Of a stretch of DNA of 64,000 bases, positions 7,723-59,757 are shown one piece after another. This DNA is from Alkalihalobacillus sp. CinArs1. GTDB taxonomy: Bacteria; Bacillota; Bacilli; Bacillales; Guptibacillaceae. The position numbers and the translations under genes are program-made. Below the pieces are notes generated by a model. The model was not told the DNA's origin, did not search any database, and worked only from the letters and a program-made list of their open reading frames with translations. The stretch spans positions 186,001 through 250,000 of the forward strand of contig NZ_CANDOB010000002.1 of assembly GCF_947387515.1 (NCBI RefSeq). The letters run 5' to 3'. Each line of letters opens with the position of its first letter. The stretch's first letter is position 1.

Positions 7723-7811
7723 TTTGTTGGTTGCGTCAAATAGGAGAAGGGCAATCGCCATGTGGAACTATGATAAGCTATACCTAAATGAATGATAAGA
7801 GGTGGAAAAAG

Positions 7812-8297
7812 ATGAAGAAAGAAGTAGAGAGAGCGATTCGGTACCGTCAAGAGGGCAACCATCAAGAAGCGAACGAGATGCTTGTTAAACTAGCAAACGA
7901 ATTTCCAGAGGATGCTTCGGTTCATTACCAGTGCGCCTGGAGCTTTGATGTATTAGGGAAAGAGTCTGAAGCGGTGCCATATTATGAAAAAGCGATTGAG
8001 CTAGGACTTCCCACTGAAGAGTTGGAGGGAGCGCTGCTAGGTTTAGGAAGTACATATCGAACGTTAGGAGACTACGAGAATTCGAAAGCTGTCTTTTTAA
8101 AAGGGATGGAGATCTTTCCTAAGAACAGGGCGATCCAGGTGTTCTATTCGATGACGCTACATAACCTCGGGGAACACGGTGAGGCGATGGAACTCTTGCT
8201 TACGAATTTAGTAGAGACGACGAATGATGACGCGATCTTGAGCTACCGTAGAGCGATTGAATTTTATGCGGATAAGTTGGATGAGGTTTGGGAGTAG
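7812..8297 (+). CDS. Tetratricopeptide repeat protein
   Basis: About 161 residues made almost wholly of helical TPR-like units: NHQEANEMLVKLANEFPEDASVHYQCAWSF is split over a first unit, SEAVPYYEKAIELG a second, GDYENSKAVFLKGMEIFPKN a third and GEHGEAMELLLTNL a fourth. Such proteins bind partner peptides; no enzymatic motif is present. I place the start at ATG 7812, which has GAGGTGG six bases upstream; an earlier in-frame ATG at 7788 lacks a ribosome binding site. Convergent with the dipeptidase gene, with the repeat arrays in between. Confidence 0.82.
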   Translation: MKKEVERAIRYRQEGNHQEANEMLVKLANEFPEDASVHYQCAWSFDVLGKESEAVPYYEKAIELGLPTEELEGALLGLGSTYRTLGDYENSKAVFLKGMEIFPKNRAIQVFYSMTLHNLGEHGEAMELLLTNLVETTNDDAILSYRRAIEFYADKLDEVWE

Positions 8298-8355: not shown

Positions 8356-8451
8356 TTTATTGTCTAAAATCAAGATTTATTAGCTAAAACTGAGATTTAT
8401 TGTCCAAAATCCGAATTTATTAGCCAAACTGAGAGTTTATTAGCTAATTAG
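8356..8451. repeat. 20-bp tandem repeat array A (4.8 copies)
   Basis: Units begin at 8356, 8376, 8396, 8416 and 8436 (last one 16 bp). Consensus TTTATTRGCYAAAAYTGAGA; alternate units share GTCYAAAAT or AGCYAAAC. The period is exactly 20 bp, not a multiple of three, so it is not coding. It lies in the 379-bp gap between the convergent TPR and dipeptidase genes and is related to array B (about 13 of 20 consensus positions shared). Confidence 0.9.
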
Positions 8452-8478
8452 AAAAATACACATGTAGCAAAAGAAGGA

Positions 8479-8513
8479 AAAACGCCAGCGGGGCACTGCA
8501 CCGCTGGCGTTTT
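8479..8513. terminator. Bidirectional terminator between the repeat arrays
   Basis: Stem AAAACGCCAGCGG (8479-8491) / CCGCTGGCGTTTT (8501-8513), 13 bp, 9-base loop, A-rich before and T-rich after. Confidence 0.88.
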
Positions 8514-8540
8514 GTATGGGTAAAAGAGGGGGGAGAGCTG

Positions 8541-8654
8541 GATATCGGCGAAAATCTGGATATATCAGCGAAATTAAGAATATATCAGCGAAAATCCATT
8601 TATATCGGCGAAATTAAGAATATATCAGCGAAAATCTGGATATATCAGCGAAAC
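8541..8654. repeat. 20-bp tandem repeat array B (5.7 copies)
   Basis: Units begin at 8541, 8561, 8581, 8601, 8621 and 8641; each starts TATATCRGCGAAA (first unit gATATC) followed by a variable 7-base half such as ATCTGGA or TTAAGAA. Units 1 and 5 are the same but for one base in each half; units 2 and 4 share the TTAAGAA half. Ends 22 bp before the dipeptidase stop codon. Confidence 0.92.
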
Positions 8655-8676: not shown

Positions 8677-10026
8677 CTACAACGACTCCAAGTAAGCCAC
8701 TACCGTCTCGATCCCCTTCGTAAAGTTCTCCAAATGAAAATGCTCGTTTGGCGCGTGAAGATTTTCAGATGGAAGACCGAAGCCCATGAGGACTACGGGT
8801 GCGTCGAGCACTCTTGCGAAGACTTCGACGATTGGGATTGAACCGCCTTCTTTAGGGAAAAGAGCGCGCGTTCCGTACACGTTTTCATAGGCGTCCGCTG
8901 CTTTTTGAATCATTGGGTTTCGAGAATCGAGAGCAACCGGTCTTGCCTTGATGAACTGTTTAACGGAAAGCGTTGTGCCTTCTGGGCATTGTGCTTCAAG
9001 GTGTTTTTCGATCAGCTCATAGATGTGCTGTGGGTCTTGATCGCCAACAAGACGGCAGCTGATCTTTCCGCTCGCTTCAGACGGAACGATCGTTTTGATG
9101 CCGTCTCCCTGGTAGCCTCCTGTGATGCCGTTGATTTCAAGGGTCGGACGGATGCCAGTTCGCTCTTTGAACGAGAAGCCTTCTTCTCCATATAGAGCAG
9201 ATAGGCCGAGTTCTTTTTTCATCGCTTCTTCGTCAGACGGAATTTCTGCGACTTCTTTTCGAAGCGTATCTGTTAGTTCAGGGACGCCTTCGTAGAAGCC
9301 TTCTACGGCAATTTTGCCATCCTCATCATGGAGAGAGTCGAGAAGGCGGACGAGTGAGTGAACAGCATTCGGAACACCGCCACCGTACACGCCTGAGTGT
9401 AGATCGGTGTTTGCTGTTTTCACGTTTACTTCCATGGCAAGTGCGCCGCGAAGCGACGTGCAGATTGCGGGTAAGCCTTTTTCAATGAATGACGTATCTG
9501 AAATGAGCACCGCGTCACAGCTTAGCTTTTCACTTTCTTCATTAATAAAAGGATCGAGATTAGGGCTCGCGATTTCCTCTTCGCCTTCGATGCAGAACTT
9601 CACATTAACAGGAAGCTTGCCGTGTTCGTTCATTAAAAGCTCCATCGCTTTGATGTGGATGAAGAGCTGCCCTTTATCATCAGTCGCACCGCGGGCGAAT
9701 AGCTTATCGTCCCGGATGACGGGTTCGAAAGGAGGGGTTTCCCACAGTTCGAGGGGATCTGCAGGCTGCACGTCGTAGTGACCATAAATGAGCACAGTTG
9801 GTTTTCCTTCTGCATGAAGCCAGTCGGCGTATACGATTGGATGACCTTCTGTTTCGATGATCTCGATGTTTTCCATGCTAGCTTTTTTGAGCGCGTCTGC
9901 AACAAAGCCAGCTCCTTTTTGTACATCCTCTTTGTAGGCAGGATCGGCAGAAATACTAGGGATCTTCAAGAACTCTTTTAGTTCATCGAGAAATGATTCT
10001 TTATGTAGTGCGATGGTTTCTTTCAT
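8677..10026 (-). CDS. M20-family dipeptidase
   Basis: A zinc metallopeptidase of about 449 residues in the ArgE/DapE/CNDP group, which cleaves dipeptides in the cytosol. Zinc-ligand segments are in order: VLIYGHYDVQPADP near residue 73, RGATDDKGQ near residue 106 and the catalytic/ligand glutamates in FCIEGEEEIASP near residue 137; the dimerisation (lid) domain contains DLHSGVYGGGVPNA near residue 205 and the C-terminal histidine lies in ENLHAPNEHF near residue 425. I use ATG 10026, six bases after AAGGAGG; the frame extends 40 codons upstream without a ribosome binding site and that extension includes the promoter region. Convergent with the TPR gene. Confidence 0.93.
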   Translation of the reverse strand: MKETIALHKESFLDELKEFLKIPSISADPAYKEDVQKGAGFVADALKKASMENIEIIETEGHPIVYADWLHAEGKPTVLIYGHYDVQPADPLELWETPPFEPVIRDDKLFARGATDDKGQLFIHIKAMELLMNEHGKLPVNVKFCIEGEEEIASPNLDPFINEESEKLSCDAVLISDTSFIEKGLPAICTSLRGALAMEVNVKTANTDLHSGVYGGGVPNAVHSLVRLLDSLHDEDGKIAVEGFYEGVPELTDTLRKEVAEIPSDEEAMKKELGLSALYGEEGFSFKERTGIRPTLEINGITGGYQGDGIKTIVPSEASGKISCRLVGDQDPQHIYELIEKHLEAQCPEGTTLSVKQFIKARPVALDSRNPMIQKAADAYENVYGTRALFPKEGGSIPIVEVFARVLDAPVVLMGFGLPSENLHAPNEHFHLENFTKGIETVVAYLESL

Positions 10027-10200
10027 TGCTAGAACCTCCTTCAGGCTATCAGTCCTTCTATTATAATAGACGGCGCATGTGTAGACAAAAATGATGGTTG
10101 TTAGAATGATAGGTTTTAGTGACTTCTCGCATTCAGTCGTTATCAAGCGGAAAATGCAGTTTGAGCAAGCTTATCCGAAGAGAACTCTTCATACGGTTGA

Positions 10201-59661: not shown

Positions 59662-59757
59662 TATTTCGCGGATATTTTCTTGATATCGCCGATAAAAGAG
59701 GAGATTTCGCAGATATATTCAATTTTCCGCGGATATCTCATTGAATTAGCGGAAATA
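59662..59757. repeat. 20-bp tandem repeat array C (inverted orientation)
   Basis: On the minus strand: GATATCCGCGGAAAATTGAA, TATATCTGCGAAATCTCCTC, TTTATCGGCGATATCAAGAA and AAATATCCGCGAAATAC, with a starting TATTTCCGCTAATTCAATGA. The core TATATCnGCGAAA-x is that of array B, with 20-21 bp period but more divergence. It occupies most of the 281-bp gap between the membrane genes and the PNPOx gene. Confidence 0.8.

Follow-up and report, generated by a model that had tools for sequence, protein, structure and literature searches.

The locus considered here raises the question of what two neighbouring arrays of short tandem units, lying together in one gap between convergent genes of Alkalihalobacillus sp. 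CinArs1, might be and what might read them. The host genome is a 4.03-Mb draft, and the window, by which we mean the whole stretch of 64,000 nucleotides at C2:186001-250000 that was analysed, carries three such arrays. Array A (8356..8451, plus strand; class 3) comprises five units of TTTATT(AGC or GTC)(C/T)AA(A/T), with cores starting at 8356, 8376, 8396, 8416, and 8436, and array B (8541..8654, plus strand; class R) comprises six units of (G/T)ATATC(A/G)GCGAAA, with core starts running from 8541 to 8641 and a two-unit alternation; the 20-bp step is kept in both with no deviation. Array C (59662..59757, minus strand; mostly class Y) lies between divergent genes and comprises five units of TATC(C/T/G)GCG at steps of 20/20/21/20, its variable base reading CCTGC unit by unit, that is, mixed. 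TRF additionally reported a 40-bp unit for array A (83% matches) and for array B (84%) and made no call at array C. An earlier, sequence-only reading of this DNA had credited all three arrays with one core; this holds for B and C (TWTATC-N-GCG-AAA), but array A carries another dialect (TTTATT-AGC/GTC-Y-AA) and belongs to a separate class, of which there are many matches across the genus. The gap is bounded by a putative TPR-like gene of 169 aa (7788..8297, plus strand) and a putative M20-type dipeptidase-like gene (8677..10146, minus strand), both named by eye, the latter having a DNA match in 14/14 genus genomes searched. As the same reading had it, a terminator-like hairpin (~8479..8513, no strand assigned, by eye) stands between A and B, and in the congeneric genome G020 it is kept between the orthologous arrays. 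The G020 ortholog of array B has different spacers, and no counterpart of array C was seen in the corresponding G020 region, which has diverged.

Searches of the whole CinArs1 genome placed these arrays, as proposed, in a real, intergenic, chromosome-wide family with very strong enrichment: TATATCNGCGAAA occurred 31 times against once for the reversed pattern, and the tandem pattern TATCNGCGA-N11..13-TCNGCGA 53 times against none, the array sites lying on large contigs. A profile built from 138 arrays read T-W-T-A-T-C-N-G-C-G-A-A-A with low information elsewhere, so that a unit consists of a 13-bp core and a nearly free spacer of 7-8 bp. The period is not exactly 20 bp, as had been thought; across the 138 arrays, 401 steps were of 20 bp, 173 of 21 bp, and 10 of other lengths. 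Among 156 arrays of at least four units (shorter arrays and duplicates left out), six units were found in 66, five in 52, and four in 17, the remainder having 7-18. The alternation of units noticed in the window is real, with spacer identities of 0.435 and 0.41 at offsets of two and four units, 0.33-0.35 at offsets of one, three, and five, and 0.32 between random arrays.

The variable position N of the core gave the arrays their dialects. Purine and pyrimidine were mixed in 14/548 neighbouring unit pairs, and by array (n = 138) the position was purely purine in 99, purely pyrimidine in 28, and mixed in 11; in CinArs1, the 15 sampled arrays were pure C/T or pure A/G, save one mixed (array C). 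Dialects were common to unlinked loci of one genome among the arrays sampled: G in all 4 from Robertmurraya massiliosenegalensis, A in all 4 from Rossellomorea CH422a, C in all 4 from B. canaveralius, and T in both from C. praedii. The dialect of G115 and G085 was TTTATTGGCG, and most arrays of these two genomes ended in a conserved AACTGGAAA-N~12-TTTCCAGTT module (17/18 and 15/17 sites, variants included), which one G085 site kept with merely two altered units. Many 21-bp units of the G115/G085 arrays (L330-L366) had the spacer TTCACAA in common. At L348 from position 2271 (G451, same class, other order), TTTATTTGCG and TTTATTGGCG units alternated for the most part in an array of 21 units.

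A scan of named genomes for the tandem pattern returned at least 108 stretches; among the 80 matches listed, 72 were in Bacillales-type genera (Rossellomorea, Robertmurraya, Neobacillus, Cytobacillus, Evansella, Salipaludibacillus, and others) or a Bacillota MAG, and 8 were single matches in other MAGs. Within the order, 75/397 genomes had at least one TATCNGCG match and 39/397 at least two. Tandem TATCNGCG pairs were distributed unevenly even in the genus, with 53, 47, 32, 23, and 27 in five genomes (G000, G020, G064, G098, and G126, respectively) and 1-4 in the other nine. On contig C1 of G115, sites looked sparse on the terminus-side half, with 3/27 among the matches listed falling between 0.81 and 3.42 Mb.

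The earlier suggestion of a protein-binding array is supported, and sequence comparison points to a candidate binder. When the nearest flanking proteins of the 156 arrays (n = 295) were clustered, the largest cluster (13 entries) was a NERD family. The 12 entries shown trace back to seven genes at about five non-orthologous places: L003/L093 and L051/L075 form orthologous pairs, and at L033 and at L070 a single gene has several arrays, which lie on both of its sides. The Pfam NERD model PF08378 matched 26/26 family members (best E 1.2e-22), and residues E46, D79, E92, and K94 of the domain, which we take to be PD-(D/E)XK-like catalytic residues, were invariant in the 26 proteins. Four cysteines are likewise invariant in the partner proteins, whose C-terminal tail is of the type ITNxxxRxFL...RLLxxLNLxxxGxxKGRxY. 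Mean pLDDT values from AlphaFold2 were 86 (whole chain) and 90 (C-terminal 94 residues), and the predicted order in the C-terminus is helix-strand-helix-helix-strand. Foldseek against the PDB returned mostly nucleases for the whole chain (Bax1, Can2, McrBC, Hjc, and R2, of the PD-(D/E)XK class) and, among other folds, winged helices for the C-terminus (CadC, LexA, MepR, and PF0095), all of them weak matches with none below E 0.001. Searches of Pfam and NCBIfam yielded the NERD domain and weak relatives, nothing further, and PADLOC gave weak PglW matches (E 0.014 and 3.7e-05), with no defence model matching well. NERD-domain proteins include PglW-like defence proteins, but the C4 zinc ribbon, the winged helix, and the linked arrays set the partner apart from other PF08378 proteins. 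A DnaA paralogue was also considered as binder, and none was evident in a DnaA-domain search of three genomes.

The NERD gene was matched in 301/397 genomes of the order and in 38/39 of those with at least two TATCNGCG pairs, co-occurrence counts that are inflated by shared ancestry. The one exception, G385, has two TATCNGCG matches off the usual 20-bp phase, which are probably due to chance. NERD genes also occur in many genomes without this first dialect.

Linkage was also examined from the side of the gene, at 30 NERD loci, one per genome, with a motif-free definition of an array (a 6-mer at least three times at 19-22 or 39-42 bp, within 400 bp of the gene). These loci are not independent, because they come from the best-scoring genomes of the order and 12 are congeners. 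An array was found at 26/30 (11/12 in the genus and 15/18 outside it), with 15 upstream, 12 downstream, and one locus having both, and at four loci none lay within 400 bp. Controls gave 1/112 in far windows of the same loci (L404 and L409 left out), 1/1200 in shuffled flanks, and 47/1747 in windows of stretches partly chosen for arrays; the flanks of L408, whose reading frame was mis-set (15 aa), and of the short loci L404 and L409 are counted in the 30. In the genus, 4-14 bp separate the stop codon of the NERD gene from the start of the array that follows. Outside the genus the array precedes the gene, its last copy lying 66-123 bp from the called start in 13/15 cases and 9 or 196 bp in two. 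The dialects beside the gene were diverse, including TATC(A/G)GCG, TATCCGCG, ATTCCGCG, TTATTGGCCAA, TAACGGCG, TATATCTNCGA, TATCGACGTTT, and ATATCRGTCTAA, and the cores at L396, L409, and L410 were unlike TWTAT. As far as sequence can demonstrate it, gene and array are linked.

The dialect of the gene-adjacent array served as a prediction for the rest of the chromosome, and it was found genome-wide in 6/7 genomes tested. Tandem pairs of ATTCCGCG, taken from a gene-adjacent array, numbered 20, 10, 16, and 15 in G290, G225, G203, and G310, two of each at the gene, and 0 in G000, G020, G064, G098, and G126, the five genomes rich in TATCNGCG. Likewise ATATCTNCGA, gene-adjacent in G178 and G294, gave 10 pairs (one at the gene) and 14 pairs genome-wide, respectively, with 5, 9, and 5 in the G294 relatives G355, G335, and G183; in twelve other genomes outside those groups there were 0 pairs, the reversed control matching once. 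In G273, for which the same prediction was made, TATATCTNCG lies beside the NERD gene, yet 0 pairs were found genome-wide, as in its relatives G207 and G158. Unpredicted ATTCCGCG pairs were found in G269, G351, G153, and G247 (13, 2, 22, and 16), the first three of which have a class 3 array beside the NERD gene despite the ATTCCGCG pairs elsewhere in the genome. G331, the sole congener without a NERD gene match, had 1 TATCNGCG pair and 0 ATTCCGCG pairs, these two dialects being the ones counted. In CinArs1, the dialect of array B is that of the genome's own NERD-adjacent array. The agreement of dialects between gene-adjacent and dispersed arrays, read from such counts, is thus established as partial.

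Seven congeners offer a comparison in which the dialect changes along with the last ~35 residues of the NERD protein, comprising the predicted recognition helix and wing. Directly behind the gene, four of them (G225, G310, G290, and G203) carry ATTCCGCG and three (G153, G351, and G269) carry class 3 arrays, the types being ATTCCGCG as in G290 and TTATTGGCC as in G269. Over residues 4-291, proteins of the two groups are 88% identical to one another and 85-88% identical within groups, and from residue 292 to the end these values become 44% and 91-95%. By the N-terminus, the nearest relatives are of opposite type (G310 with G153, 0.96; G290 and G203 with G269, 0.94), which suggests at least two exchanges. 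At the DNA level, the identity of G290 and G269 (L391 and L400) is 85-95% until the gene's 3' end is reached, drops to 12-68% across the recognition segment plus the array, and is 93-97% thereafter, the last windows, at the locus end, not being meaningful. Since the drop in identity is confined to the gene's 3' end and the array, the exchanged block would consist of recognition helix, wing, and array, and the alignments establish that recognition segment and array were swapped jointly. The two are contiguous, and a single recombination therefore moves both, whatever the function.

Taken as a whole, these sequence relationships make it probable that the arrays are docking or binding sites of the NERD-winged-helix family, read by its winged helix. 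In the working that we propose, the protein would combine an N-terminal NERD domain (PD-(D/E)XK nuclease-like), a C4 zinc ribbon, and a C-terminal winged helix, the last of which would read the asymmetric core of ~13 bp. Steps of 20-21 bp, equal to two helical turns, could line up 5-6 protomers along the same face of a ~120-bp DNA segment, and the gene-adjacent array would serve as the cognate reference site. Physical binding, cooperativity, and a purpose at the arrays are what we infer beyond the linkage itself. In other genera, the array before the NERD gene could allow autoregulation; being upstream in other families, it could also serve another regulator. Dispersed arrays may hold the nuclease-fold protein at set positions on the chromosome, for the most part downstream of genes. 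As to the purpose, marking of the chromosome or holding of the nuclease is our tentative guess, and DNA processing at transcription ends is a possibility that we regard as rather doubtful. An unlikely but more specific version is a chromosome-wide self-address, in which the nuclease-fold protein would have an exchangeable recognition end that travels together with the reference array as a cassette. The dispersed arrays would then take on the new dialect by mutating where they stand, since on self DNA they would serve to hold or inactivate the nuclease, which would stay free to attack unmarked DNA. CinArs1 has three array classes (R, C, and class 3) and one detected NERD gene (E ≤ 1e-20; 5/12 first-look candidates scored), so a second protein, or arrays left from former alleles, may possibly account for the surplus classes.

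The positions of the arrays relative to genes bear on the alternative that they are BIME/REP-like topology elements, that is, phased curved DNA to which gyrase or some general nucleoid protein binds, with the NERD gene merely nearby. Counting gaps flanked by two called ORFs of at least 80 aa, and leaving out arrays that sit at the end of a locus or are overlapped by a called ORF, we found the 77 array gaps to be convergent in 31 cases, codirectional in 39, and divergent in 7, and the 372 array-free gaps of at least 100 bp in the same loci to be convergent in 47, codirectional in 213, and divergent in 112. The association with convergent gaps is a real excess (31/77 vs 47/372), but a partial one. 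This preference for convergent and codirectional over divergent gaps is what topology elements would show, and the T-rich and A-rich stretches spaced ~10 bp apart in the unit profile would suit phased curvature; so would the rRNA operon ends behind which arrays lie in the genus. Gyrase and HU, however, are conserved proteins, unlike the array dialects, which change between sister clades, and 26/30 NERD genes have an array beside them. Terminal inverted repeats, suspected by eye in array B, numbered 7 against 7.7 expected, which is not above shuffled pairing, and consensus base pairs were absent. We consider this explanation quite unlikely.

The terminator between arrays A and B is nothing special in this setting, because terminator-like hairpins showed no clear excess over control gaps, whether convergent (13/31 array gaps vs 22/47) or codirectional (13/39 vs 63/213). 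At one CinArs1 site (L261 2900-3360), an array has a terminator hairpin on either side, and the two hairpins are near-identical, which looks like a terminator duplication; the G020 counterpart has a single, different terminator. The arrays behind rRNA operon ends in the genus are oriented against rRNA transcription, with examples behind 23S-5S in CinArs1 (L277 3640-3915) and behind a 5S match in G020 (L291-L293) and G064 (L178, L180, and L186); a 5S-like stretch forms the contig end at L269, L270, L272, L273, and L294. Several such sites have, in a row, an A/G-class array, a conserved linker of ~50 bp, and a C-class array, and draft contigs break there. A second, truncated 5S-like copy of 76 bp lies past the true 5S at L277 3482-3555 and its equivalents, and at L292 a match to the Bacillaceae-1 RNA (RF01690) adjoins the 5S. 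As a general rule the rRNA link was rejected, being strong in the genus, with no rRNA close to arrays elsewhere in the named loci searched (blastn with CinArs1 23S-5S); the array at L081 has a 5S ~5 kb away.

Selfish drive would explain the arrays in another manner: the nuclease cuts at or near them, repair spreads or homogenises them, and gene and arrays persist like a homing system. The invariant E46, D79, E92, and K94 of the 26 NERD proteins, the single dialect often found among the sampled arrays of one genome, and the differences between relatives at some gaps are all compatible with it. The arrays nevertheless tend to stay put, with 8/9 arrays of at least four units in common between the compared stretches of G085 and G115, and 16/27 CinArs1 array loci matching a G020 array locus by long flanks, plus three on closer reading. 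Spacers of different CinArs1 arrays were alike at the level expected from composition (identity 0.296 vs 0.301), so the arrays did not arise by recent copying from a single master. In a search for new sites with clean empty counterparts, as a mobile element would show, many arrays held their position, and the array-free counterpart gaps differed more widely. The queries used also found no arrays on mobile DNA, a pattern search of viral_contigs giving 0 and blastn with array B giving no match in phages or plasmids. We give such a drive little probability.

An element acting at the RNA level, with 3'-UTR repeats that fold into a structure or serve an RNA-binding protein, might be suspected because array A follows a stop codon and precedes a terminator-like hairpin. 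Orientation is balanced, however, both relative to codirectional genes (18 same, 21 opposite) and to the replication strand as judged by GC skew (79/146), RNAalifold found 0 consensus pairs in 56 aligned three-unit segments, and no stem-like covariation was seen within units, leaving this reading very improbable. The balanced gene and replication orientation and the lack of a conserved RNA fold make the arrays look like double-stranded DNA sites. Neutral minisatellites arising by slippage, which two-unit higher-order repeats and the variable unit number at orthologous sites might suggest, were already disfavoured and have a negligible chance, given conserved cores with unconserved spacers, a unit-number peak at 5-6 (118/156), and dialects common to unlinked loci.

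The conservation of the core, anticipated by the earlier reading, suits recognition by the winged helix of the NERD protein. Of 16 locus pairs named, nine had arrays of equal unit number, and in these orthologous pairs 342/350 core positions and 248/350 spacer positions were identical, a comparison in which detection itself favours conserved cores; on this alignment, array cores are demonstrably kept while spacers drift. Orthologous gaps can nonetheless carry arrays of different dialects, as L003 (A/G) and L093 (C) do among the 64 array pairs listed at ~66-95% flank identity.

Several known systems resemble the arrays in part. The REP/BIME elements of enterobacteria are dispersed, palindromic, non-coding repeats downstream of genes, with genome-specific variants and a link to the RAYT transposase; the arrays are likewise dispersed, non-coding, genome-specific, and downstream of genes (divergent gaps 7/77 vs 112/372), but they are non-palindromic, keep a fixed 20/21-bp step, and are linked to a NERD-winged-helix gene. 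Iterons of Rep-controlled plasmid origins are direct repeats of ~20 bp in helical phase beside rep, and the arrays share with them the tandem, in-phase, ~20-bp direct repeats adjoining the gene of the presumed binder; they differ in occurring in tens of chromosomal copies with no plasmid match and in having a nuclease-fold partner rather than Rep. An iteron-type origin on a replicon beside rep is not what was seen, as array B had no plasmid or phage match (blastn) and the arrays lie on large genome contigs. ParB-parS, Noc, MatP-matS, and FtsK-KOPS are cases of one protein family serving many dispersed chromosomal sites, as proposed here, whereas the present sites are tandem arrays with an asymmetric core, clade-specific dialects, and a nuclease domain in the partner. 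At PRDM9 hotspots and in the target-recognition domains of type I restriction systems, a recognition module changes fast and its DNA targets follow; the NERD partner is similar in its fast-changing recognition module with co-changing targets, and different in that the targets are tandem arrays, one of which directly adjoins the part of the gene that encodes the recognition end. CRISPR arrays have identical repeats of ~24-40 bp with spacers of similar length, which units of a 13-bp core and a 7-8 bp spacer do not resemble. The TAACTGA repeats of Beggiatoaceae (PMC4679880) are abundant short intergenic direct repeats with proposed protein binding; in these respects they are like the arrays, and unlike them they are contiguous 7-bp units near start codons, proposed there to act on RNA. 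Our literature search, with subscription literature mostly beyond its scope, returned no description of such arrays and no link between NERD proteins and repeats, and arrays A, B, and C had no gathering-score match in Rfam 15, the sole Rfam match in the window being a purine riboswitch (RF00167, 52464-52566); the family thus appears as unfamiliar as the sequence-only reading had taken it to be.

These results provide a candidate partner and recognition module for a widespread, apparently unnamed class of bacterial intergenic repeats, and a testable role for a NERD protein family that was matched in 301/397 genomes. The natural swap of recognition helix and array may further offer a direct way to study how a DNA-binding protein changes its specificity in step with tens of chromosomal sites.
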